From: Candidatus Roseilinea mizusawaensis
GTDB taxonomy: Bacteria; Chloroflexota; Anaerolineae; J036; Brachytrichaceae
Reading direction: 5' to 3'
Assembly: GCA_016841965.1 (NCBI GenBank)
Contig: JAEANN010000003.1
Coordinates: 1-36,769 of the forward strand
DNA length: 36,769 nucleotides
A program made the translations under genes and the position numbers. Below are positions 5,600-18,693 of the stretch, piece by piece. A model generated the notes under the pieces. The model saw only the letters and a list, made by a program, of their open reading frames with translations, searched no databases and was not told the DNA's origin. Position 1 is the stretch's first letter. Each line of letters opens with the position of its first letter.

Positions 5600-6676
5600 A
5601 TGACGCGAACGATCGACCCTGACTACAAACCTAAACTCCCCCCCAAGACAGACTATGGCATTGGCATCGTCGGCTGCGGTGGCATCGTCAACTATGCCCA
5701 CCTGGTCGCTTACAAGAACAATGGTCTGAACGTTGTTGCTTGTTACGACGTCAACCCAGAGGCTGCGCGAAAGACGGCTGAGACGCACGGCATCCCGAAG
5801 GTGTATCTACAACTTGATGATTTGCTGGCCGACCCAGCGGTCGAGATCGTGGACATCGCGGTACAGCCATGGCACCAGCGCGCAATCGCCGAACGCGCGT
5901 TGGCCGCCGGCAAACATCTACTTTGCCAGAAACCACTTTCGGATACTTTCGGGGATGCTGTGGCCATTGCCGAGGCCGGCCGGCGCGCCGATCGAAAGGT
6001 CGCGGTCAATCAGCAGATGCGCTGGGATGCCGGCATCGCCGCTGCGCGCGATCTGATCGCCAAGGGCGTGATTGGCCAGCCCACCGACGCGCAGATTCAG
6101 GTGAGCACGAGTACGCCCTGGCACATGTGGCCGTGGTTGGCCGAGTCGCCTCGGCTCGAGGTGCTCTATCACAGCATCCACTACCTCGACGCGATGCGCT
6201 TCCTGTTTGGCGATCCGGCGTGGGTGACCAGCCGTCATGCCAAGTATCCCAAGCAAGGCGCCAAGGCCGAGACCAAGACCATCACCATCCTGGACTACGC
6301 CGACGGGTTGCAGGCGATGGTGGCCGTCAATCATCACGATGAAAGCCCCGACGGCTACGCGATCTTTCGTTTCCTCGGCACGGAGGGCCTGATCAAAGGC
6401 ACTATCGGCTTGATGTACAACTATCCTCATGGTCGTCCCGACACGTTCGAGGTTCATCTGCATGCCGACAAGCCTGACGATTGGCATGTGTTGCCCTTGC
6501 AAGGGATGTGGGTGCCGGACGCGTTTATTGGTCCCATGGCCTCGCTCATGCAAGCGATCCAGACCGATGGGATACCCGCGACCGATGTAACGGATAATTT
6601 GAATACCCTGCGTCTTGTCGAAGCAGCCTATCGCTCGGTGACAGAGAATCGCTCGGTCAGTCCGGCGGAGATCTAA
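5600..6676 (+). CDS. Gfo/Idh/MocA-family NAD(P)-dependent oxidoreductase
   Basis: This cytosolic sugar or cyclitol dehydrogenase-like protein has 358 aa, the usual family length. The N-terminal Rossmann fold carries GIVGCGG at about residues 22-28. The conserved lysine motif reads CQKP (Lys111) where CEKP is usual. The C-terminal half is the family's substrate-binding alpha/beta domain. ATG 5600 is chosen over GTG 5585 because GGAG lies 5 nt upstream of it. It is the first gene of a tightly packed operon: the SDR gene starts 10 bp after its stop. Within the operon it probably oxidises an imported sugar or sugar acid. The substrate is not determinable from sequence. Confidence 0.9.
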   Translation: MTRTIDPDYKPKLPPKTDYGIGIVGCGGIVNYAHLVAYKNNGLNVVACYDVNPEAARKTAETHGIPKVYLQLDDLLADPAVEIVDIAVQPWHQRAIAERALAAGKHLLCQKPLSDTFGDAVAIAEAGRRADRKVAVNQQMRWDAGIAAARDLIAKGVIGQPTDAQIQVSTSTPWHMWPWLAESPRLEVLYHSIHYLDAMRFLFGDPAWVTSRHAKYPKQGAKAETKTITILDYADGLQAMVAVNHHDESPDGYAIFRFLGTEGLIKGTIGLMYNYPHGRPDTFEVHLHADKPDDWHVLPLQGMWVPDAFIGPMASLMQAIQTDGIPATDVTDNLNTLRLVEAAYRSVTENRSVSPAEI

Positions 6677-6686
6677 ACGCAGAGAA

Positions 6687-7508
6687 ATGGAACAGCGGCT
6701 GAAAGACAAGATCGCCATCGTCACCGGCGCCGGGCGCGGCATCGGCAAGGGTGTGGCCTTGCGGTTGGCCCGCGAGGGCGCGCACATTGTGATCGCCGAA
6801 TATGACCCTGACACGGCTCAACAGACGGCCCAGGAGGTGCAGGCGTTGGGCGTCTTGGCCATGCCGTACCGGATTGATCTGTCTGACGTATCACAGATTC
6901 AGCCGATGGTGGATGCAGTGGTGCACGCCTTTGGGCGCATAGACATTCTGGTCAACAACGCCGGTCGTGTGCAGACCAAGCCGATGCTCGATCTCACAGA
7001 AGAGGACTGGGATCGCGTCGTCAACGTCAATCAACGGGGCCTGTTCTTCTGCCTGCAAGCTGTGGCCCATCAGATGATCGCCCAAATTCCCGAAGAGATT
7101 CGCAACAGTGATCGCGCGCCGCACAGCTTCGGGAAGATCGTCAACTTCTCGTCGGTGGCCGGCCGCAGCGGCCGGCCCAATTCCACTCACTACGCCGCGA
7201 CCAAGGCCGCCGTCATCAGCATCACGCGCTCGGCGGCGCTGGCGCTGGCGCGCTACAACATCAACGTCAACGCCGTCTGTCCCGGCATCGTGCTCACTGC
7301 GATGTGGCAAGAGATAGACCAGGCCAACCAGGTCATGCGCGGGCTAGAACCCGGCGAGTGGATTCGTCGCTCCATTGAGACCGTGCCGCTCAAGCGTGTC
7401 GCCCAATCGGAAGATATCGCTGCTGCAGTGGCTTTTTTGTGTTCGCCAGATTCAGATTACATCACCGGCCAGGCCCTCAACGTAGATGGCGGGTTGGAGA
7501 TGGATTAG
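6687..7508 (+). CDS. Short-chain dehydrogenase/reductase
   Basis: This classical SDR of 273 aa is cytosolic and NAD(P)-dependent. TGAGRGIG lies at residues 13-20, NNAG at 90-93, the catalytic serine at about 156 and YxxxK as Tyr169/Lys173. The C-terminus has the usual GQALNVDGGLEMD ending. The acidic residues after beta-2 (AEYD) suggest NAD preference. In sugar operons such enzymes oxidise L-fucose, L-rhamnose or 2-keto-3-deoxy sugar acids. Together with the mutarotase and lactonase downstream, a non-phosphorylating oxidation route fits, but this is inference. Confidence 0.92.
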   Translation: MEQRLKDKIAIVTGAGRGIGKGVALRLAREGAHIVIAEYDPDTAQQTAQEVQALGVLAMPYRIDLSDVSQIQPMVDAVVHAFGRIDILVNNAGRVQTKPMLDLTEEDWDRVVNVNQRGLFFCLQAVAHQMIAQIPEEIRNSDRAPHSFGKIVNFSSVAGRSGRPNSTHYAATKAAVISITRSAALALARYNINVNAVCPGIVLTAMWQEIDQANQVMRGLEPGEWIRRSIETVPLKRVAQSEDIAAAVAFLCSPDSDYITGQALNVDGGLEMD

Positions 7509-7521
7509 CTTGGTAGATGTC

Positions 7522-8571
7522 ATGCTTACTTATACCGATCTTCCACTTTTGCCTACTCAGCTCATCGGCAGCGCCGGCGTGCCGAGCTGGATGTGGGTCT
7601 TCCGTGATGCAGTCGCCGAAGGCAAGGTTGGGCCGGAGGACATCCGTGAGACGTTGATGGATGCCGTCAACATCGCGCTTCAGGACGCAACCGAGGCAGG
7701 TGTGGACATCATCTCCGACGGCGAGTTCTTTCGCGCTGACTTCACGTGGAATTTCCATGAGCGCATCGCCGGCCTGGAGAAGATTCCCTTCGAGCGCCGG
7801 CTGGGCTATCCTGGCCCGGACCAGTTGGACGCCTTTCGCGCCGTCGAACCACTCAGCGTGCCAGACGGCTATGGGCTGGTAAACGAAGTGCGCTATATCA
7901 AGACGCGCACCGATAAACCGTTCATCACTGCGCTGCAAAGCCCGCTCACACAGGCCTTTCGTATTGACCCCGGCAAAATCTACAAAAACAAAGGTGAAGT
8001 GGCCTGGGCATTGGTGCCGTTCATCAATAAGGAGTTGAAAGACGCCGTGGCCGCCGGCGCGCGCCACATCCAGTTCGACGAGCCGGCATTCTGGACGATG
8101 CCTGGCGGCTTGCCTGAGTTCGTGAAGATGTACAACGCCTGCGTCGAGGACGTAAACGCCACCATCGGCGTGCACCTGTGCTTCGGCAACTTCCGTGGCC
8201 GGCCGGCTACATCAGACCGCACTTACAAGCACATCGCCCCTTACTTGGAACAGATGAACGTGGATGTGGTGCACATGGAGTTCGCCAACCGTTGCATGTG
8301 GGAAGCCGAGTTATGGGCGAAATATGGCGGCGACAAGATTCTGTGCGCCGGCGTGGTTGACGTGAAGGGGCGTTCGCTCGAGACGCCAGAATTGGTGGCC
8401 GAGCGCATCCGGTTGCTCTTGCGCTACGTCAAGCCGGAGAAGCTGTGGGTCTCGTCTGATTGTGGCTTCAGCCAAACGGCGCGCTGGCTGGCCGTCGAAA
8501 AGATGAAGGCCATGGTCAAGGGCGCGGCCATCGTGCGCCGAGAGTTGACCGGTGAAAACAGCCCCGCGTGA
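7522..8571 (+). CDS. MetE C-terminal-like zinc methyltransferase homologue
   Basis: This protein of 349 aa belongs to the cobalamin-independent methionine synthase (UROD/MetE-like) superfamily and covers only the catalytic barrel. The four zinc ligands of MetE are all recognisable: His218 and Cys220 (HLC), Glu253 (HMEF) and Cys314 (DCGF). The Glu-to-Cys distance equals that of MetE. FDEPAF at 185-190 is the usual substrate-pocket strand. It should therefore bind zinc and activate a thiol. Stand-alone members may transfer methyl groups to thiols or act on other thiol substrates. ATG 7522 is used. ATG 7486 would overlap the SDR gene by 23 bp and neither has a good ribosome site. The next gene overlaps its stop, so the two products are probably partners. 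Confidence 0.85.
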   Translation: MLTYTDLPLLPTQLIGSAGVPSWMWVFRDAVAEGKVGPEDIRETLMDAVNIALQDATEAGVDIISDGEFFRADFTWNFHERIAGLEKIPFERRLGYPGPDQLDAFRAVEPLSVPDGYGLVNEVRYIKTRTDKPFITALQSPLTQAFRIDPGKIYKNKGEVAWALVPFINKELKDAVAAGARHIQFDEPAFWTMPGGLPEFVKMYNACVEDVNATIGVHLCFGNFRGRPATSDRTYKHIAPYLEQMNVDVVHMEFANRCMWEAELWAKYGGDKILCAGVVDVKGRSLETPELVAERIRLLLRYVKPEKLWVSSDCGFSQTARWLAVEKMKAMVKGAAIVRRELTGENSPA

Positions 8572-9557
8572 ACCTTCCCTCGCGGTTGAAAACGATGTTG
8601 AAGCTCGAATACAACGACAAGCTCGGTCGTGTCATCCGCATGGATGACATGGACACCATCGGGCGTTCGACCTATGCTATGTTGGAGGATGCGGTTGCCA
8701 GCAGATGCACCGACGAAGCGCTGGCCTTGTCCGATTACTACCTCAGAGAGCTGCGCATCATGCACGATATTCTGATGACCTGGGCGCAGGACATCATCCG
8801 CTTCATGATCGCGCGCGATGCTCACGCAGCGCAGCCCGTGGCGCAAGCGCTCTCCAGCGCAATCTGCAAAGCCTGGCGTGACTTCGAGTTCGGCGTCGCC
8901 CCGCTGCGGCGATTACAAGCAGCCATTCGTGACGGCGACCATGCGCGCGCTTCGGCTGCCTTGGAGCGTTTGTGGCTGGAGTTCAAAATCCCCCACGATG
9001 TGCTCGTGGCGTGGATCAACGAGATGCTGAATTCCCTGTCCAAGACCACCGAGCAGCATGTGCTGGATTCGATCCTGGAGACGCATCAGAGCATCTGGGG
9101 CGACCGCTATGCGACGTGGGATCAGATGACGCCCTGGGAGAAAGTGGCGCTGACCGTGGAGGGGATGCGCGGCCACCTCAGCGGCGCCTCTCGCAAAGGC
9201 GACGTGATCGTGCGCGAGGAAGAAGATCGCTTTGTCATCGCCTTCGACCCCTGCGGCACAGGCGGCGTGTTGCGGCGCGGCGATCCAGAGACCGGCCGCC
9301 CCGCCTATCGCACCGACGGCTTGAATCGCGAGCCGCACGATTGGACGTGGGGTAAGGTCGGCGTACACTGGTACTGCAGCCACTGTGCCATCGCGATGGA
9401 ATGGCTGCCTGGACGCCGGCGCGGTCATCCCTTGCGCCCGCTCGATCATACGCTGGATCATCAAGCCCCATGCGTTTGGTATGTCTACAAGGACGAAAGC
9501 CAGACGCGCGCCTATCACTACCCACGCACCGGACTTGTTAAACCAGAAAGAGGATGA
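8568..9557 (+). CDS. Unrecognised protein with Cys/His motifs, partner of the MetE-like protein
   Basis: No family was recognised for this 329-aa protein. GTG 8568 overlaps the stop of the MetE-like gene by 4 bp; ATG 8595 is the alternative start. The N-terminal 190 residues look fully alpha-helical. The C-terminal part holds Cys229 in FDPCGTGG, a CSHC cluster at 270-273 (Cys270, His272, Cys273) and Cys302, with several aromatic residues (HDWTWGK, VHWYC). This looks like a metal- or thiol-binding module. Strict overlap with the zinc methyltransferase homologue suggests coupled translation and a joint complex or reaction. It has no signal peptide or membrane segment. Confidence 0.7.
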   Translation: MNLPSRLKTMLKLEYNDKLGRVIRMDDMDTIGRSTYAMLEDAVASRCTDEALALSDYYLRELRIMHDILMTWAQDIIRFMIARDAHAAQPVAQALSSAICKAWRDFEFGVAPLRRLQAAIRDGDHARASAALERLWLEFKIPHDVLVAWINEMLNSLSKTTEQHVLDSILETHQSIWGDRYATWDQMTPWEKVALTVEGMRGHLSGASRKGDVIVREEEDRFVIAFDPCGTGGVLRRGDPETGRPAYRTDGLNREPHDWTWGKVGVHWYCSHCAIAMEWLPGRRRGHPLRPLDHTLDHQAPCVWYVYKDESQTRAYHYPRTGLVKPERG

Positions 9558-9594: not shown

Positions 9595-10440
9595 ATGACC
9601 GCAATGAGGATAGACACACACCAACACTTCTGGAATCTGGCCAAGGTCGAATACCCATGGCTGGTGCCGGCCTATGGGCCGATCTACGCCAACTTCGCCC
9701 CGCAAGACCTGGAGCCGCAACTGAAGGCCGCCGGCATTGACCGCACGGTGCTTGTGCAAAGCGCCAACAACAACGAGGACACCGTCTCGATGCTCACCCA
9801 GGCCGAATGCTACGAGTGGATCGGCGCGGTAGTGGGCTGGGTGCCACTCTACGATCATCACGAAGCGACTAAGCTACTGGATCGGTATGGCAAGCATCCA
9901 AAATGGCGTGGCGTGCGCCATCTCAATCACGAAGAGCCAGATCCGGATTGGCTGGTTCGCCCCGATGTATTACATGGCTTGAAGTTGCTTGAGGAGCGCG
10001 ACATGACATTCGACGTCGTCGCTATCTTTCCCAAGCACATCGGCCATGTGCCCACCTTGGCCGAGCACGCACCTGCCCTGAAGATCATCATTGACCATCT
10101 CGCCAAGCCACCGATCAAAGAGCAGAAGATAGACGAGTGGCGCGCGGCCATGGCGCGTTGCGCGCAGTATCCGAACGTCTATGCCAAGGTCTCCGGCCTG
10201 AACACTGCCGCCGATTGGAATAACTGGTCGGCTGCCGATTTGAAGCCCTATATTGATGCGGCCATCGAGTTATTTGGCGCACATCGCTGCATGTTCGGCA
10301 GCGACTGGCCGGTAGCGATCTTGGCGGGCGACTATGCGAAGGTGTGGCGCGAAACAAACGAGGCGCTCAAAGGGCGCAGCCAAGCTGAAATTGATGCGGT
10401 GCTGGGCGGCACGGCGCAGAAGGTCTATCAAGTCGAGTAG
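9595..10440 (+). CDS. COG3618-type amidohydrolase / sugar lactonase
   Basis: This TIM-barrel metal-dependent hydrolase of 281 aa belongs to the amidohydrolase_2 family. DTHQHFW (His9, His11) opens the barrel and GSDWPV lies near the C-terminus. The layout matches the L-fucono-1,5-lactonase/L-rhamnono-lactonase group, which opens sugar lactones made by dehydrogenases. TGGAGG is 4 nt upstream of ATG 9595. The position between two dehydrogenase genes and a rhamnose-mutarotase-like gene supports a lactonase role for a 6-deoxysugar. The exact sugar is inferred, not shown. Confidence 0.85.
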   Translation: MTAMRIDTHQHFWNLAKVEYPWLVPAYGPIYANFAPQDLEPQLKAAGIDRTVLVQSANNNEDTVSMLTQAECYEWIGAVVGWVPLYDHHEATKLLDRYGKHPKWRGVRHLNHEEPDPDWLVRPDVLHGLKLLEERDMTFDVVAIFPKHIGHVPTLAEHAPALKIIIDHLAKPPIKEQKIDEWRAAMARCAQYPNVYAKVSGLNTAADWNNWSAADLKPYIDAAIELFGAHRCMFGSDWPVAILAGDYAKVWRETNEALKGRSQAEIDAVLGGTAQKVYQVE

Positions 10441-10563: not shown

Positions 10564-10887
10564 ATGAAACGCTTTGGACAGGTGATCGGCATAAAACCGG
10601 ATCGTATCGAGGTGTACAAGCAGTTGCATGCTGCAGTGTGGCCGGCTGTGCTGAGCAAGATCAAGGAATGCAACATCCGCAATTACTCGATTTATCTGCA
10701 TGACAACCTGCTGTTCGCCTATTTCGAGTATGTCGGGGACGACTTCGAAGCCGATATGGCCAAGATGGCTGCCGACCCCATGACACAAGAGTGGTGGGCC
10801 ATCTGTATGCCGATGCAAGTGCCCGTTGAGGGCCGCAAGCCCGGCGAGCATTGGCACACGATGGAAGAGGTCTTCCACACCGATTGA
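10564..10887 (+). CDS. rhaM: L-rhamnose mutarotase family protein
   Basis: This small dimeric alpha/beta barrel protein of 107 aa interconverts sugar anomers. Tyr18, His22 and Tyr41 align with the catalytic or binding residues described for E. coli RhaM, and a WW pair lies at 77-78. The length is as expected for the family (about 104 aa). AAGGGAG lies just upstream of the ATG. A 123-bp gap with ACACCGGTGT at 10486-10495 separates it from the lactonase gene. Members of this family also act on L-fucose, so the sugar could be either. Confidence 0.9.
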   Translation: MKRFGQVIGIKPDRIEVYKQLHAAVWPAVLSKIKECNIRNYSIYLHDNLLFAYFEYVGDDFEADMAKMAADPMTQEWWAICMPMQVPVEGRKPGEHWHTMEEVFHTD

Positions 10888-10986: not shown

Positions 10987-12408
10987 ATGTCCAAGCATCG
11001 AATGTCTGCTCTACTTGTTGTCGCCGGCGCCACGCTTGCCGCGTGCGCAGCGCCGGCTGCGCCTGCCCCCCAAGCGCCGCAGCAGCCGGCTGCCGCCCCC
11101 ACTCAGGCTGCGCCGGCGCAATCTGCTGGCGATGGCCCACAGGTAGCCGGCGTGGATCGCCGCTTCGACGGTGTCACGTTGCGCGCTGCGTTCATCGGCG
11201 GCGGCCAATACGAAAAGATGTATGAATCTATCAAAGACTGGGAAGCGGCGACCGGGGCAAAGGTCGAGATTGTCTACAAGGGCGATGGCTTCGAGATCGA
11301 CAAAAAGCTAAAGACCGACTTCGCTGCCGGCACCGGCGACTACGATGTGGTTTGGGATCACACCTCGTTCTTCTCACAATACATCCCCTTCCTAGAGCCA
11401 TTGGAGAACTATTTCAGCCAAGAGGAACTGAAGGACTTCTCGCAAGCGATTCTCAAGAGCGCGACGCGCGATGGGCATCTGTGGCTGATCCCGCGCCATG
11501 CCGATATTAGCGTCGTTCACTATCGCACAGACCTATATGGCAATGAGCAGTACAAGGCCGAGTTCAAAGCCAAGTATGGCTACGATCTGGCGCCGCCGGA
11601 AACGTGGAATCAGTTCTTCGATCATGCCGAGTTCTTCGCCGGCAAAGAACCCGGCCTGCTTGGCACCAACTTCGCCGGCAAAGAAGAGGCGCTCAGCGGC
11701 CGCTTCTACGAAATCCTGGTGGCCAACGGCGGCAAGTTACTCGACGAGAACTTCAAACCGGCCTTCAACAGCGAAGCCGGCGTGAAGACGGCCCAATTCT
11801 TCCGCGAACTCTATGCGCGCAAACTGGTGCCAGCCGACATGACCAGCCTGCTGTGGGATGGCGTGGCCAACAACTTCTGCCAGGGCAATATTGCCGTGCA
11901 CAACGAATGGTTCGGCTGGTACTCCTACTTCCAGGACCCGAAGAACTGTAAAGTCGCCGGCAAGTTCGACCTGATCCGCCAGCCGGTAGGTGAAGGCGGC
12001 ATCCGCAGCGGTTGGGCCGGCGCGCACGCCTTCAGCATCCCGGCCAGCAGTAAGAACAAAGAAGCCGCAGCGGCCCTGATCAAGTTCCTGACCTCGGAGA
12101 AGATCATGTACGAAGAAGCCAAGCTTGGCTTCCTGCCGGTGCGCGACAGTGTCTGGGCGCGTATGATTGCCGAAGCGTCCAACAGCGACAACCCGCTGGA
12201 CAAGAAGCGCCTGGAGATTGCCCAGGTCGCGATCAGCAATGACTTCTTCGCGCCGCCATTGATCGCGGAATGGATCCCGCTGACGAACATCTTGACGCCC
12301 AAGCTGCAGGCGATCATGCTCGGCGATGTTGATCCCAAGCAGGGCTTGGATGAGGCGGCGGCTGAAGTAGAGAAAATGATGGCGGAGGCCGGCTACTACA
12401 ACAAGTAA
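10987..12408 (+). CDS. CUT1 ABC sugar-binding lipoprotein
   Basis: This extracellular solute-binding protein (family 1) of 473 aa is lipid-anchored. The signal peptide ends in the lipobox LAAC with Cys20, followed by an Ala/Pro/Gln-rich linker of about 30 residues. The rest is a typical periplasmic-binding-protein-like mixed alpha/beta fold. AGGAGG lies 8 nt before the ATG. Two CUT1 permease genes follow, so it delivers an oligosaccharide or monosaccharide to them. The operon's enzymes suggest a 6-deoxyhexose, but this is inference. A stem-loop follows the stop codon. Confidence 0.93.
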   Translation: MSKHRMSALLVVAGATLAACAAPAAPAPQAPQQPAAAPTQAAPAQSAGDGPQVAGVDRRFDGVTLRAAFIGGGQYEKMYESIKDWEAATGAKVEIVYKGDGFEIDKKLKTDFAAGTGDYDVVWDHTSFFSQYIPFLEPLENYFSQEELKDFSQAILKSATRDGHLWLIPRHADISVVHYRTDLYGNEQYKAEFKAKYGYDLAPPETWNQFFDHAEFFAGKEPGLLGTNFAGKEEALSGRFYEILVANGGKLLDENFKPAFNSEAGVKTAQFFRELYARKLVPADMTSLLWDGVANNFCQGNIAVHNEWFGWYSYFQDPKNCKVAGKFDLIRQPVGEGGIRSGWAGAHAFSIPASSKNKEAAAALIKFLTSEKIMYEEAKLGFLPVRDSVWARMIAEASNSDNPLDKKRLEIAQVAISNDFFAPPLIAEWIPLTNILTPKLQAIMLGDVDPKQGLDEAAAEVEKMMAEAGYYNK

Positions 12409-12434
12409 GTAGCAAGCTCGTCAGTCGGCAGAAT

Positions 12435-12473
12435 CCTCAGCTCCGAGACATATCGCAAGCCTCGGAGCTGAGG
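12435..12473 (+). promoter_or_regulatory. Stem-loop between binding-protein and permease genes
   Basis: CCTCAGCTCCGAG at 12435-12447 and its exact complement at 12461-12473 form a 13-bp stem with a 13-nt loop. No U-tract follows. It probably stabilises the upstream mRNA end or limits read-through, so that more binding protein than permease is made. Confidence 0.75.
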
Positions 12474-12486
12474 CTGGTTTACAAGC

Positions 12487-13413
12487 ATGGCGCAACTTAC
12501 GCAAGCATCCGTCGTCGAGCAGCGTTTCGCGTCGACCCGATCTTCTGGCACATCCAGATTCGTCTTTGTGATGCTGGCGCCGTCGGTAGTCATCATTGCT
12601 TTCGTCGTCGTCTTTCCGCTTATCTATTCGTTCTACCTGTCTTTTACCTCATATACCCTGCTCAAACCAGTCCCTGCCTGGAATAATTTTGCAAATTACC
12701 AGCGCTTGCTACAAGACCCCATCTTTGGCCAGGCCTTCATCAACACGCTCTTGTTCATGTTCGTCACCGTCAACGCCGCTTTTCTAATGGGGTTGTTTCT
12801 TTCCCAGGCCGTTGCGCGCACGATTCGCGGCCAGTCGCTGTTGCGCACTCTGCTCATGGTGCCGATGATGTTTGCGCCGGTGATGGTGGGCTTTCAGTTC
12901 CGCTGGTTTTTCAACGATCAGGTGGGACTAGTGAACAACGTGCTGACGTCATTGGGGTTGCTCAACGGCTCGATTCCCTGGCTGGTGGATCGCTGGCTGG
13001 CTATGTTCTCTATTGGTGCGGCAACCGTGTGGATGAATACGCCGGTGGTTGCTATCATTCTACTGGCCGGCACACTGTCCATCTCACCGGAATTGTACGA
13101 GGCGGCTGACGTCGACGGCGCAAACAGTTGGCAGAAGTTCCGCGCGATCACCTATCCATTGCTTGGGCCGTTTATCACTATTGCGCTGACTATCCTTTCG
13201 CTGGATGTCGCCCGCGGCTACGACATCGTCTCGATCATGACCGGCGGCGGGCCGGCCCATCGCACCGAGCTGTTGTGGACTTACGTCCCCCGCGTAGCAA
13301 TCCAGGAATCCAAATTCGGCCTGGGCGCAGCCATGTCATTCGTCACCGTCATCGTCACTGTTGCGTTTACCCTATACCTGTTCCGTCAATTGCTGAAATC
13401 GAGGATTCTCTGA
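12487..13413 (+). CDS. CUT1 ABC sugar permease (MalF-like)
   Basis: This inner-membrane permease of 308 aa has about six transmembrane segments. The first starts near residue 25. The EAA loop reads EAADVDGANSWQKFRAITYPLLGP and contacts the ATPase. It lies directly after the stem-loop and its stop overlaps the start of the partner permease. No ATP-binding subunit is encoded in this operon, so a shared MsmK/UgpC-type ATPase from elsewhere probably energises it. Confidence 0.92.
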   Translation: MAQLTQASVVEQRFASTRSSGTSRFVFVMLAPSVVIIAFVVVFPLIYSFYLSFTSYTLLKPVPAWNNFANYQRLLQDPIFGQAFINTLLFMFVTVNAAFLMGLFLSQAVARTIRGQSLLRTLLMVPMMFAPVMVGFQFRWFFNDQVGLVNNVLTSLGLLNGSIPWLVDRWLAMFSIGAATVWMNTPVVAIILLAGTLSISPELYEAADVDGANSWQKFRAITYPLLGPFITIALTILSLDVARGYDIVSIMTGGGPAHRTELLWTYVPRVAIQESKFGLGAAMSFVTVIVTVAFTLYLFRQLLKSRIL

Positions 13414-14288
13414 TGCGCTATTCGTCTCGCCGTCGTTTGTCAAGTGCGTTGCTCGATCTCCTTGTGTGGGTTGTCCTAATTGCCATGCTCGTGCCGGCGC
13501 TGTGGCTGGTGTTCACATCGGTGCGCAACCCGGTGGAGGTCAACGCCAAGCCGCCGGTGTGGGTTCCGCGCCAGCTCACCCTCGATGGCTTTAAACCGCT
13601 CTTCGGCCAGTCCACCGAGGCGACGGGCGCTATTCCATTTGACCGCTACTTCTTCAATTCGACGTTGGTTGCTCTGTTCAGCACAGTGATTGCCGTTGCC
13701 CTGGGCACGATGGCCGGCTACGTGTTCGCCCGCTATCGTTTTCGGAGCAAAAACGCTCTTTTTCTGGGCATTATGCTCTCGCGCGCTGTGCCGGGCATCG
13801 CCCTCAGTTTGCCCTTGTTCCTCTTGTTCGCGCGCATCAGCCAGGCCGGGCCACTGAAACTGATTGATACGCAGCTCGGCCTCATCATCGTCTATACCGC
13901 GGTCAATGTACCTTTTACGATCTGGTTGATGGATGGCTTCTTTCGCGAGATTCCCACCGAACTGAGTGAAGCAGCTCAGCTTGATGGGTGTACCGAGTGG
14001 CAAACATTCGTGCGCGTCAACCTGCCGCTGGCCTTGCCTGGGTTGGCCGCCAGCGCCATTTTTGCCTTTCTGGCTGCGTGGAATGAATTTCAGATTGCCG
14101 GCGTACTGACCCGCACTGTTAATTCCAAGACTGCGCCGGTGGGGCTGTTCGATTTCACCGGCCAGTTCACCATTGACTGGCGTGGCATGGCTGCGATGGC
14201 GACCGTCATGATGATCCCGGCTATTGCTTTTGTGTTCATGGTGCAGCGCAACCTCGTGCGCGGCTTGACCTTTGGCGCAGTCAAGTAG
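13413..14288 (+). CDS. CUT1 ABC sugar permease (MalG-like)
   Basis: This second permease subunit has 291 aa and about six transmembrane segments. The EAA loop reads EAAQLDGCTEWQTFVRVNLP. The ATG overlaps the upstream TGA (ATGA style), which indicates translational coupling. The frame is open further upstream, but that part is a shadow of the previous gene. It is the last gene of the operon, and no clear terminator follows it. Confidence 0.92.
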   Translation: MRYSSRRRLSSALLDLLVWVVLIAMLVPALWLVFTSVRNPVEVNAKPPVWVPRQLTLDGFKPLFGQSTEATGAIPFDRYFFNSTLVALFSTVIAVALGTMAGYVFARYRFRSKNALFLGIMLSRAVPGIALSLPLFLLFARISQAGPLKLIDTQLGLIIVYTAVNVPFTIWLMDGFFREIPTELSEAAQLDGCTEWQTFVRVNLPLALPGLAASAIFAFLAAWNEFQIAGVLTRTVNSKTAPVGLFDFTGQFTIDWRGMAAMATVMMIPAIAFVFMVQRNLVRGLTFGAVK

Positions 14289-14682: not shown

Positions 14683-15825
14683 ATGAATCGTAGAATCAAT
14701 AACTTGCTCGCAGGGATTGCCATTGGCGCAGCATTTGGTCTGATTCTGACAGCTTGCGCGCCTGCCGCCCAGCCCGCCCAGCCCGCCCAGCCCGCCCAGC
14801 CCGCACAGAGCAAAGTCAAAATTGGCATATCCATGTCTGACTTTGCGACTGAGCGATGGAAGCCGGAAGCAGACATGATGAAGAAGCTGCTCGAGGAGAA
14901 GGGATATGAGGTTCTGGTGCAGGAAGCCAATCACGATGTGAAGCTGCAAAATGACCAGATTGACAACATGGTTGCGCAGGGCGTTAAGGGCCTGATCATT
15001 GTTGCTGAAGACAGCGACGCAGCGGCTACGGCGGTGGACAAGGCTGCCAAAGCCGGCGTAAAGGTCATCGCCTATGATCGCTTGATCAAGACGCCGGCCA
15101 TCGCGGCGTATCTGTCGTTTAACAACGAGGAAGTAGGCCGGCAGCAGGCCCTGGGCGTGATGAAGGCAGTGGACATTGACGGGGGCAAGTGGACCAAGGA
15201 TAACCCATTAAAACTGGTCAAGCTGGGAGGTAGCCCCACCGACAACAACGCCATCCTGTTCCGCAAAGGGCAAGATGAGATTTTGCAGCCCTATGTGGAT
15301 AAGGGTGTGATTAAAGTCGTCGCGGACCAGTGGGTGGACAACTGGGACCCGGCCAACGCGCTGAAGCTGATGGAGAACATCTTGACGGCGCAGGGCAACC
15401 AGATTGATGCTGTGGTCGCCTCTAATGATGGCACCGCACTGGGTGCGTTGCAAGCGTTGAAGGCGCAAGGCTTGGCCGGTAAGGTGCCGATCTCTGGCCA
15501 GGATGCCACCGCCGACGGCTGCAACAGCATTGTCAAGGGCGAACTCACCGTCTCGATACTCAAGGACATTCGCGAGTTGGCCCCCATCGCTGCCAATCTG
15601 ATGGACGAGCTGTTAAAGGGCCAGTCGGATCCCAACCTGAAGTCGTTTACATTGGCTCAGTTAACCAATGACTCTAAGTACCAGGGCGAGGTCATGGCCT
15701 ATTTCCTGCCTGTGTTCCAGGTCGACAAGAGCAACGTCTTTGATCTGGTAGTGAAGAGCGGCTTCCAGCCGTATGATGCGGTATACCGCGATGTTCCAGA
15801 ATCAGAGCGCCCGCCCAAGCCGTAA
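14683..15825 (+). CDS. xylF: D-xylose-type ABC sugar-binding lipoprotein
   Basis: This CUT2-class substrate-binding protein has 380 aa and belongs to the XylF group. The lipobox is LTAC with Cys25, followed by an AQP repeat linker. Characteristic XylF segments include ERWKPEADMM, KVIAYDRLI, YLSFNNEEVG, KLGGSPTDNNA, VADQWVDNWDP and VVASNDGTALG. AGGAGG lies 6 nt before the ATG. It is followed by a strong stem-loop and then the ATPase and permease genes. It should bind xylose or a related pentose outside the membrane. Specificity is by family similarity only. Confidence 0.93.
   Translation: MNRRINNLLAGIAIGAAFGLILTACAPAAQPAQPAQPAQPAQSKVKIGISMSDFATERWKPEADMMKKLLEEKGYEVLVQEANHDVKLQNDQIDNMVAQGVKGLIIVAEDSDAAATAVDKAAKAGVKVIAYDRLIKTPAIAAYLSFNNEEVGRQQALGVMKAVDIDGGKWTKDNPLKLVKLGGSPTDNNAILFRKGQDEILQPYVDKGVIKVVADQWVDNWDPANALKLMENILTAQGNQIDAVVASNDGTALGALQALKAQGLAGKVPISGQDATADGCNSIVKGELTVSILKDIRELAPIAANLMDELLKGQSDPNLKSFTLAQLTNDSKYQGEVMAYFLPVFQVDKSNVFDLVVKSGFQPYDAVYRDVPESERPPKP
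14770..14805 (+). repeat. 9-bp tandem repeat (x4) encoding the lipoprotein linker
   Basis: CAGCCCGCC is repeated three times exactly, plus a fourth copy with one change. It encodes Gln-Pro-Ala units of the spacer between lipid anchor and binding domain. Copy number can change in frame without harming the fold. Confidence 0.85.
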
Positions 15826-15855
15826 CTAACGATAGATCTTTACAGGATAGTCCTT

Positions 15856-15890
15856 TATCCGCGCCCAGCCTACTCTGCTGGGCGCGGATA
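15856..15890 (+). promoter_or_regulatory. Stem-loop between xylF and xylG
   Basis: TATCCGCGCCCAGC at 15856-15869 and its exact complement at 15877-15890 form a perfect 14-bp stem with a 7-nt loop. No U-tract follows, so it is more likely an mRNA-stabilising or attenuating structure than a full terminator. It fits a need for more XylF than XylG/H. Confidence 0.8.
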
Positions 15891-15909
15891 CTCTCTGGTG
15901 CGACAGCCG

Positions 15910-17427
15910 ATGAACGATGACACCATCCTTGAATTTCAGAATGTCAGCAAAGTCTTTCCGGGGGTCAAGGCGCTGAGCGATGTCAGTTTCCGCATTCAGC
16001 GCGGCACCATTCATGGGCTATGCGGAGAGAACGGCGCTGGTAAGTCCACACTGATGAAGATTTTGTCGGGCGTCTATCCTCACGGAACTTATGACGGCCG
16101 GATTATTTACAACGGGCAAGAGCTTAAGCTACATGGTGGCGCCATTCGGCAAGCTGCCGAGCAAGGTATCGCCATTGTGTATCAAGAACTGACGCTGATC
16201 CCCAACATGACAGTCGGTGAGAATGTCTTTTTGGGGCGTGAGCCGGTTGAACGGGGGGCCATCAACTGGGACCGCTTGTATTCAGATACCCAGTTGATTC
16301 TTAAGCGCTACGGCCTAGACTTGCACCCGCAAGATGTTGTCAAGGATTTAGGCGTCGGCAAGATGCAAATGACAGAGATCGCTAAAGCGCTTTCGGAAGA
16401 CGCTAAAGTGTTGATTCTAGATGAACCCACGAGCGCTTTGTCGGAGATCGAGATTAACAAGCTCATGGATATCTTGCGCACTCTCAAGAGCCTGGGCATG
16501 ACGTGTATCTACATCACGCACAAGATGAGCGAATTTTTCGAGATCACCGACACGATCACAGTGCTGCGAGATGGTAAAGTGGTGACCACCCAGCCGACCA
16601 AAGATATCACCCCTGAAAAGCTGGTGAGCTATATGGTAGGCCGGGAAATGAAAGAACGTTTTCCTAAAAGCAACCGCCGGCCCGGCGAGGTGATCCTCGA
16701 AGTCAAAGATCTACACGCTGTCCGTGGAGAGCGGGAGGTCTTGAAGGGCGTTTCGTTCGATCTGCGGCGCGGTGAGATTCTGGGCATCGCTGGATTGATG
16801 GGGTCAGGCCGCACTGAACTGGTGATGACCCTCTTTGGTGAGTTTGCGCGCATCACGCGCGGCAGCGTGCTCGTGGAAGGTCGCGAGGTCAGAATTACTG
16901 ATAGTCACAGCGCCATGGAACATGGCATCAGTCTGGTGCCCGAAGACCGCAAGCGTCACGGGCTGGTGTTGGGGCAGTCTATCCTGAACAATATCTCATT
17001 GCCCAACTTGGATCGGTTTGCAGGTTTTATGCGCATCAACCGGAACGCTGAAGTTAAAGAGAGCCTCCGCATGATGAAAGAGCTGGCAATTAAGGCGCCC
17101 AATCTGTATGTGCCGGCCGAGTCGCTATCCGGTGGCAATCAGCAAAAGGTGGTCATTGCTAAATGGCTGATGTCCAAACCTAAAATCCTAATCATGGATG
17201 ACCCGACACGCGGCGTGGACGTGGGCGCCAAGTATGAAATTTACAAGCTCATGAACGATCTGGCTGAAAATGGAATCGCAATTATTATGATTTCCAGCGA
17301 GCTCGAAGAAGTGTTGGGAATGAGCGATCGGGTGCTGGTCATGTGGCAAGGGAAATCCAATGGCTTGCTGCCGATCCAGGAAGCGACGCAGGAAAGCATC
17401 ATGCATCGGGCTGCTGGCCTGATGTGA
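15910..17427 (+). CDS. xylG: CUT2 ABC sugar transporter ATP-binding protein
   Basis: This tandem two-domain ATPase of the XylG/RbsA type has 505 aa from ATG 15910; GTG 15898 is the alternative start. The first domain has Walker A GENGAGKST (about 39-47), a degenerate signature LGVGKMQM and Walker B VLILDEPTS. The second domain has the usual degenerate P-loop GLMGSGRTEL, the canonical signature LSGGNQQKV and a Walker B ILIMDDPTRGVD. Such asymmetry is normal for the family, with the two ATP sites differing in activity. It sits on the cytosolic face and energises the XylH permease. An imperfect palindrome (17421-17443) spans its stop codon. Confidence 0.93.
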   Translation: MNDDTILEFQNVSKVFPGVKALSDVSFRIQRGTIHGLCGENGAGKSTLMKILSGVYPHGTYDGRIIYNGQELKLHGGAIRQAAEQGIAIVYQELTLIPNMTVGENVFLGREPVERGAINWDRLYSDTQLILKRYGLDLHPQDVVKDLGVGKMQMTEIAKALSEDAKVLILDEPTSALSEIEINKLMDILRTLKSLGMTCIYITHKMSEFFEITDTITVLRDGKVVTTQPTKDITPEKLVSYMVGREMKERFPKSNRRPGEVILEVKDLHAVRGEREVLKGVSFDLRRGEILGIAGLMGSGRTELVMTLFGEFARITRGSVLVEGREVRITDSHSAMEHGISLVPEDRKRHGLVLGQSILNNISLPNLDRFAGFMRINRNAEVKESLRMMKELAIKAPNLYVPAESLSGGNQQKVVIAKWLMSKPKILIMDDPTRGVDVGAKYEIYKLMNDLAENGIAIIMISSELEEVLGMSDRVLVMWQGKSNGLLPIQEATQESIMHRAAGLM

Positions 17428-17469
17428 TCACACGTGACACATCCGCAAATCCAAGAACGAGGTGTCTGA

Positions 17470-18693
17470 ATGGCTGATATGACTGTTGCGCAGCCCGGCC
17501 GCGAGCAAAGCTCAACTGCCTCGCCTCTGCTGCAGTTGTTCCGCCGGAACGTCCAGACGTACACGATCATCATCGCTTTGATTCTGATCTGGCTGGTGTT
17601 CACTATCGCCACGGGCGGGGGCTATCTGTCGCCCCAAAATATCTCCAATTTGTTTCGCCAGATGTCCGTCACATCGCTGATGGCCGCCGGCATGGTGCTG
17701 GTCATCGTCACAGGCGGCATCGACTTGTCAGTGGGCCGGCTGGCAGGTTTTGTATCGGTGGTGGTGGCTTATCTTCAGGCTAATACCTGGTATCAGATCA
17801 TTCCTAATCAGCCTGCGCTATCTGCTGTGTTATCTGTGAGCGTAGGGTTGGCTGTAGGTGCTGCGTGGGGCATCGCTCAGGGATATATCGTGGCTTACCT
17901 GCGCGTGCCGGCCTTCATCGTCACATTGGGCAGCATGTTCATTTTGCAGGGGCTGATATTGTTGCAGACCGAAGGCAAAACCATTCCCGCTAATCAGCCG
18001 GTCTTCTCGGAAATAGGCCAAGGCTACTTGCAATCAGAATTGAGTTGGATTCTGGCCGTAGTGGTTATTGCTTTGATGTTCCTGTTCATGTTTCGAGACC
18101 GGGTTAACAAACAGAAGTATGGCTTCCCGTTGTCGCCACTGTGGCTGGACATTGTCAAGAACGTGTTTTATGCCGGCCTGCTGGTGCTGTATGTCTACGC
18201 TGTCAACCTCTATCAGGTCGCGCCGGGCATTCCGTATCCGGTGCTCTTGTTGGCGATCGTGGCTGTCATCATGACCTATATCTCGACCAACACGCGCTTT
18301 GGCCGGCATGCTTATGCGATTGGCGGCAACCGCGAAGCTGCACGATTATCCGGCATCAACATTCGCCGCAATATCTTCTTGATTTTTGTGTTGATGGGTT
18401 TCCTATCGGGCTTGGCCGGCATCGTGCTCGCCTCCTATGTCGGTTATGGCACCATCGGCGCGGGAGCCGGCTACGAGCTTGATGTGATTGCCAGCGCCAT
18501 CCTCGGCGGCACGTCGACTTTAGGCGGTGTGGGCACCATCCCCGGCGCTATGATTGGCGGCCTGATTATGGCCAGCCTCAGCACGGGCCTGCAAATGCTC
18601 AATGCGCCGCCCGCCACGACCTATGTAGTCAAAGGAATTGTTCTGGTGGCCGCTGTGCTGTTGGATGTTTACTTCAAGCGAGAGGGCAAATAG
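17470..18693 (+). CDS. xylH: CUT2 ABC sugar permease
   Basis: This inner-membrane permease of the XylH/RbsC (BPD_transp_2) family has 407 aa and about ten transmembrane segments. Typical segments include MVLVIVTGGIDLSVG, VPAFIVTLGSMFILQGL, GGNREAARLSGINI and the C-terminal ILGGTSTLGGVGTIPGAMIGGLIM. The extra-long form with a central insert matches XylH rather than RbsC. GAGGTG lies just before the ATG. It is the last gene of the operon and a strong terminator follows. Confidence 0.93.
   Translation: MADMTVAQPGREQSSTASPLLQLFRRNVQTYTIIIALILIWLVFTIATGGGYLSPQNISNLFRQMSVTSLMAAGMVLVIVTGGIDLSVGRLAGFVSVVVAYLQANTWYQIIPNQPALSAVLSVSVGLAVGAAWGIAQGYIVAYLRVPAFIVTLGSMFILQGLILLQTEGKTIPANQPVFSEIGQGYLQSELSWILAVVVIALMFLFMFRDRVNKQKYGFPLSPLWLDIVKNVFYAGLLVLYVYAVNLYQVAPGIPYPVLLLAIVAVIMTYISTNTRFGRHAYAIGGNREAARLSGINIRRNIFLIFVLMGFLSGLAGIVLASYVGYGTIGAGAGYELDVIASAILGGTSTLGGVGTIPGAMIGGLIMASLSTGLQMLNAPPATTYVVKGIVLVAAVLLDVYFKREGK

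Follow-up and report, generated by a model that had tools for sequence, protein, structure and literature searches.

Zinc-thiol chemistry on the MetE fold is used in catabolism by epoxyalkane:coenzyme M transferase, which takes coenzyme M as its thiol. Oxidative breakdown of L-fucose runs through a mutarotase, a short-chain dehydrogenase/reductase (SDR), a fuconolactonase, a dehydratase, a further SDR and a hydrolase. In methionine supply, MesD and MesX form a folate-independent methionine synthase in which a MetE core needs a partner of unknown function, a DUF1852 protein, as well as oxygen to convert homocysteine to methionine, and homocysteine is bound in core methionine synthases by Ser, Glu and Asp residues (433, 484 and 599 in E. 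coli; PMC7857596). Methyl ethers of sugars are, as far as is known, removed mainly by cytochrome P450s, as in the case of 6-O-methyl-D-galactose, which a P450 demethylates with release of formaldehyde (PMC10033563). Here we analysed a 36,769-nucleotide stretch of DNA from Candidatus Roseilinea mizusawaensis (contig JAEANN010000003.1; the window), in which a gene for a MetE-like protein adjoins one for a protein with a CSHC motif (the CSHC protein) inside a sugar cassette. The two genes are conserved together, and the MetE-like protein keeps intact zinc and homocysteine sites.

Results

The window is part of contig C28 in a genome of 3.86 Mb; in the nearest named loci, both proteins are 92–95% identical to those of the window. 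Two open frames on the same strand encode the MetE-like protein, which has 349 residues and comprises the catalytic half only (7522–8571, +), and the CSHC protein (8568–9557, +). A preliminary description of this DNA, made from the sequence alone, had given the latter 329 residues and a 4-bp overlap with its neighbour, which holds if translation starts at GTG 8568. Its relatives align starting at the residue of ATG 8595, and the preceding nine residues show no conservation, so that a protein of 320 residues, separated by a 23-bp gap and without overlap, is more likely. Close spacing of the two genes is frequent among relatives.

A scan of one genome per species, covering 84,980 species, returned 27 CSHC loci. 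One of these (L022) could not be evaluated, as its contig begins within the CSHC gene; in all 26 evaluable named genomes a MetE-like gene lies within 1.5 kb of the CSHC gene, as it does in the window and in two more genomes. The preliminary description had made its case depend on the pair being conserved together elsewhere, and this is what the neighbourhood survey found: conservation in about 28 genomes is more than chance. Gene order is MetE–CSHC in 20 loci and CSHC–MetE in 6, so the pairing cannot be put down simply to the inheritance of a single arrangement. A single branch (support 100/98) separates the paired proteins from the others in a tree of 50 MetE-like proteins, and the nearest row outside this clade comes from a genome (G217) that has, on a different contig, a CSHC protein of 39% identity. 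Distances among the MetE-like proteins and among the CSHC proteins co-vary (r = 0.73; 0 of 2,000 permutations as high), with shared genome ancestry expected to account for part of this correlation. Among 400 sampled Chloroflexota, 208 had a MetE-like match and 7 a match to the CSHC family; MetE-like proteins are common in this phylum and CSHC proteins rare.

At two loci the pair is present without the sugar cassette, namely in metagenome-assembled genomes labelled Zixiibacteriota and unclassified bacterium (L014:6960-8951 and L015:5290-7281). Their proteins are 66% (MetE-like) and 74–77% (CSHC) identical to those of the window, and the pair lies near enolase-superfamily and dioxygenase-like genes, with sulfatase genes also present in L015; horizontal transfer or mis-binning is the likely origin. 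Outside Chloroflexota, CSHC proteins are known from these two loci and from Rhodococcus plasmids.

The MetE-like protein matches PF01717 (E = 2.5e-24) and aligns over its full length to the C-terminal half of T. maritima MetE and to PDB 3rpd. The zinc ligands already named in the preliminary description, H218, C220, E253 and C314, align with positions 650, 652, 674 and 736 of the T. maritima file, which we take to be the published H618, C620, E642 and C704 on the assumption that the file has a 32-residue tag. S17, E68 and D186, which that description had missed, are counterparts of the three homocysteine-binding residues of MetE. All seven residues are invariant in 48 relatives (21 CSHC-paired, 27 unpaired), a pattern that points to homocysteine, or an amino-thiol close to it, as the thiol that the enzyme uses, and the intact zinc and homocysteine sites make methyl or thiol chemistry plausible.

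Searches of Pfam and NCBIfam revealed no N-terminal folate domain above cut-off. A MetE has two homologous domains in about 750 residues, with a folate-binding N-terminal half, an architecture that the 349-residue protein does not have; it scores 60.8 bits against the MetE model TIGR01371 (cut-off 929.95) and aligns only to model positions 422–753. It falls far under the cut-offs of every curated methionine synthase model, with bits and cut-offs of 201 and 406 (PRK04326), 156 and 392 (PRK09121), 85 and 258 (PRK00957), and 60 and 399 (PRK01207). It is the sole PF01717 protein of the genome. A protein of MetH size (1203 residues) is encoded elsewhere in the genome, indicating that a methionine synthase is present there.

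The FDPCGTGG and CSHC (YCSHC) motifs reported for the second protein are indeed present, and its family remained unrecognised: Pfam, NCBIfam, PDB sequences and profile searches gave no match, and Foldseek with an AlphaFold2 model of the full-length protein (pLDDT 82) gave none at E ≤ 0.001. Membership of a known, unrelated family, which the preliminary description had named as a finding that would tell against its proposal, was thus not seen in Pfam, NCBIfam or PDB sequences. VIA-align matches of the model (Z 5–8) are ordinary four-helix bundles over residues 9–138. Predicted alone, the C-terminal half reached a pLDDT of 49, and the fold comparison covers the full-length model only. Twenty-three relatives, 50–94% identical to the window's protein, share a layout of a long helical N-terminal half, or bundle, followed by a C-terminal Cys/His domain rich in invariant residues. 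H193, C219, G222, Y259, H262, C263, E268, C292 and K298 are invariant in 30 of 30 sequences (the 23 relatives and seven distant homologues; numbering follows alignment A1, to which 10 is to be added for the 329-residue reading), a set that suggests a metal or thiol site.

The C-terminal half of the CSHC protein has the same order of strand-Cys, helix and strand as ATC_hydrolase (PF14196), from which the CSHC protein differs by its extra N-terminal helical half. Pfam gave no PF14196 match in the CSHC protein. In hhalign, the two profiles scored 31.5 with a probability of 23%, in the register predicted by the pattern of cysteines; 200 column shuffles reached at most 18.2 and an unrelated family scored 27.0. 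Given that score and that probability, the similarity is weak, lies below a safe level and serves as a lead only. A role as a methyltransferase corrinoid protein was also considered. PF02607 matched only under its cut-off, over about 41 residues, and the idea was dropped because the B12-binding Rossmann domain (PF02310) gave no match and the DxHxxG motif is absent from the 23 sequences.

Homologues of either protein also occur apart from the pair. Three CSHC homologues on Rhodococcus plasmids, 27–29% identical and annotated as hypothetical, lie at L042:11998-13032, L043:11971-13032 and L044:9917-10684; two of the Rhodococcus homologues have SDR/DUF1116 genes on one side and two glutamine-synthetase-like genes on the other, and one (RHA1) adjoins lpdA and a 2-oxoacid dehydrogenase complex. 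Another CSHC homologue (G114) is found near TRAP transporter and FNR-like genes. The MetE-like clade that neighbours the paired one adjoins ROK sugar kinase and SIS-domain (PRK02947) genes in 6 of 6 loci read. These loci (L080, L081, L082, L083, L086 and L089) represent a second sugar-linked MetE-like group without CSHC, often accompanied by Gfo/Idh and SDR genes.

Almost every genome with the pair has it embedded in a sugar cassette. The dehydrogenase, lactonase and mutarotase neighbours listed in the preliminary description could be confirmed in the window, all on the forward strand. Upstream lie a Gfo/Idh/MocA dehydrogenase (5600–6676, +) and, in the same operon, an SDR dehydrogenase (6687–7508, +), both conserved in the cassette. 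Downstream follow an amidohydrolase-2 resembling L-fucono-1,5-lactonase (9595–10440, +; 207.9 bits against an equivalog cut-off of 400), an L-rhamnose-mutarotase-like protein (10564–10887, +; family taken from the cluster member L009:7634-7954, PF05336 rhaM, 114 bits) and a carbohydrate ABC importer of one binding protein and two permeases (10987–14288, +). Across loci the recurrent neighbours are the Gfo/Idh, SDR and fuconolactonase-like amidohydrolase genes, a sugar binding protein with two permeases, the rhamnose-mutarotase-like protein and a GntR/FCD-type regulator. Further genes at some loci encode pyruvate-dehydrogenase-type E1 subunits, a class III aminotransferase or a xylose-isomerase-like protein, and one locus (L017) adjoins L-fucose isomerase-like and FGGY kinase genes. 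The picture is that of an oxidative 6-deoxysugar route with the usual dehydratase and hydrolase absent from the operon; enolase-superfamily and FAH-type genes occur elsewhere in the genome.

An enzyme of the fumarase/adenylosuccinate-lyase superfamily recurs in 18 loci (L012:6175-7530 and 17 others). It scores 499 bits against XcbD (cut-off 600), is also below the cut-off of PRK08937, and scores equally well against members without sulfur chemistry. The lyase lies outside the window's operon; a homologue (65–66% identity) is encoded on another contig (C45:267361-268695), in an operon that also contains genes for two SDRs, a cupin-like protein and an ABC importer. Directly downstream of the window's cassette is a second ABC importer of xylose/ribose type (binding protein, ATPase and permease; 14683–18693), at the place where close relatives have the lyase gene. 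At L026 (9054–10133), and also at L035, the CSHC gene is directly followed by a gene for a 359-residue protein that by eye resembles UroD/MtaA methyltransferases and has no Pfam or NCBIfam match.

Discussion

We tentatively favour, with less than even confidence, a reading in which the two proteins form a module that performs a single step, dependent on zinc and homocysteine, while a 6-deoxysugar or some derivative of one is broken down oxidatively; an O-methylated compound would be the likeliest substrate. In favour of this reading are the pairing in two gene orders, the single clade of paired MetE-like proteins with its G217 neighbour, the co-variation, the invariant zinc and homocysteine residues, the missing folate domain, the MetH-size protein encoded elsewhere, the sugar cassette, the neighbouring clade beside ROK and SIS genes, and the precedent of MesD/MesX. 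The MetE-like protein would bind and activate homocysteine on zinc, as its seven invariant residues suggest, and may accept its methyl (or alkyl) group from a donor derived from the sugar rather than from methyl-folate, since the folate half is missing. Oxidation of the sugar by the upstream dehydrogenases could turn an adjacent methyl ether into an activated, vinylogous-ester-like methyl donor. The CSHC protein would then be a dedicated partner on the donor side, holding or preparing the donor in its domain of invariant Cys, His, Glu and Lys residues, and the module would be the catabolic counterpart of MesD/MesX with a different partner. Full catabolic O-demethylation, in which dehydrogenases activate an O-methyl deoxysugar and its methyl group is passed to homocysteine by the zinc-homocysteine enzyme, working with an obligatory partner from a new family, seems to us improbable.

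Several observations weigh against the two-protein module. That the sugar is O-methylated is a guess, and the sequence evidence names no substrate. The CSHC protein bears no corrinoid signature, with PF02607 below cut-off and DxHxxG absent. CSHC homologues of 23–38% identity lie without a MetE-like neighbour on Rhodococcus plasmids and in other Chloroflexota, so methyl transfer is not a specific property of the CSHC fold, and unpaired MetE-like relatives retain the same active site without CSHC.

The main rival gives the CSHC protein an independent activity, because distant homologues of it are found in catabolic clusters of other kinds. The two proteins would act in turn on sugar-derived intermediates and be clustered since both are needed, not since they cooperate; the MetE-like protein would be an independent zinc-thiol transferase and the CSHC protein a metal-dependent hydrolase, lyase or isomerase acting on an organic acid, possibly of an ATC-hydrolase-like superfamily. 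We regard this as rather unlikely. The homologues in MetE-less clusters of Rhodococcus (RHA1 included) and G114 speak for it, as does the hhalign score above all column shuffles, but inside the paired clade the two genes are never seen apart and co-vary, and the ATC_hydrolase similarity is weak next to the score of an unrelated family.

Two further explanations appear very unlikely to us. In one, the dehydrogenases generate a reactive carbonyl or enone that is trapped by homocysteine or another amino-thiol, activated on the MetE-like protein, and the fumarase-superfamily lyase processes the thiol adduct, as in coenzyme M-dependent epoxide metabolism. The zinc-thiolate site is intact and the lyase gene of 18 loci resembles XcbD, a member of its superfamily that forms C–S bonds; yet the scores of the lyase against non-sulfur members are just as high, several cassettes lack the gene, including that of the window, whose genome has the homologue elsewhere, and no thiol-processing gene is common to the loci. 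The other holds the pair to be a biosynthetic folate-independent methionine synthase, a fifth core type, that is merely located in a sugar operon. MesD/MesX provide a precedent, against which stand the MetH-size protein, the sugar-cassette setting in almost every genome and scores far below every methionine-synthase equivalog cut-off. A housekeeping methionine synthase is likewise disfavoured by the MetH-size protein and the sugar context.

A MetE-type/CSHC pair acting in deoxysugar cassettes would represent a new step of metabolism, give a function to a new protein family of Chloroflexota and Rhodococcus plasmids, and broaden the idea of dedicated partners for MetE-core enzymes, as MesD has in MesX. 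If O-demethylation by the pair were true, methionine would be the form in which sugar methyl ethers are recovered, with no need for P450, corrinoid or folate. Searches of the open-access literature returned no paper that places a MetE-type protein in the breakdown of deoxysugars, that has a MetE homologue demethylating O-methyl sugars or that describes the CSHC family, which agrees with the preliminary remark that no step in deoxysugar oxidation is known for zinc-thiol methyltransferases.

Compared with described systems, the cassette has mutarotase, SDR and lactonase in common with the oxidative L-fucose pathway, but it lacks the dehydratase and FAH hydrolase and has the MetE-like protein, CSHC and often the lyase instead. 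In contrast to P450-dependent sugar demethylation, no P450 was seen in the window's cassette, and in contrast to epoxyalkane:coenzyme M transferase with its coenzyme M, the MetE-like protein keeps all three homocysteine-binding residues. The core-MetE/MesB of Dehalococcoidia is similarly a single-domain MetE of Chloroflexota with an HxC...C zinc site (PMC7005905, PMC7857596); MesB, however, is tied to a Wood-Ljungdahl corrinoid protein, whereas the window's cassette has no corrinoid protein and the fourth zinc ligand is glutamate. Like MesD/MesX, the pair sets a MetE catalytic half of about 340 residues, with zinc and homocysteine residues kept and no folate domain, beside a partner of unknown function. 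Unlike MesX, that partner is not a DUF1852 protein (no PF08908 match in the window's CSHC at E ≤ 10 or in its 23 relatives at E ≤ 1), the MetE-like protein reaches 156 of the 392 bits set for PRK09121, and the setting is a sugar operon rather than methionine supply. The pair joins a core MetE-type enzyme to a new partner and sets it in a new context.
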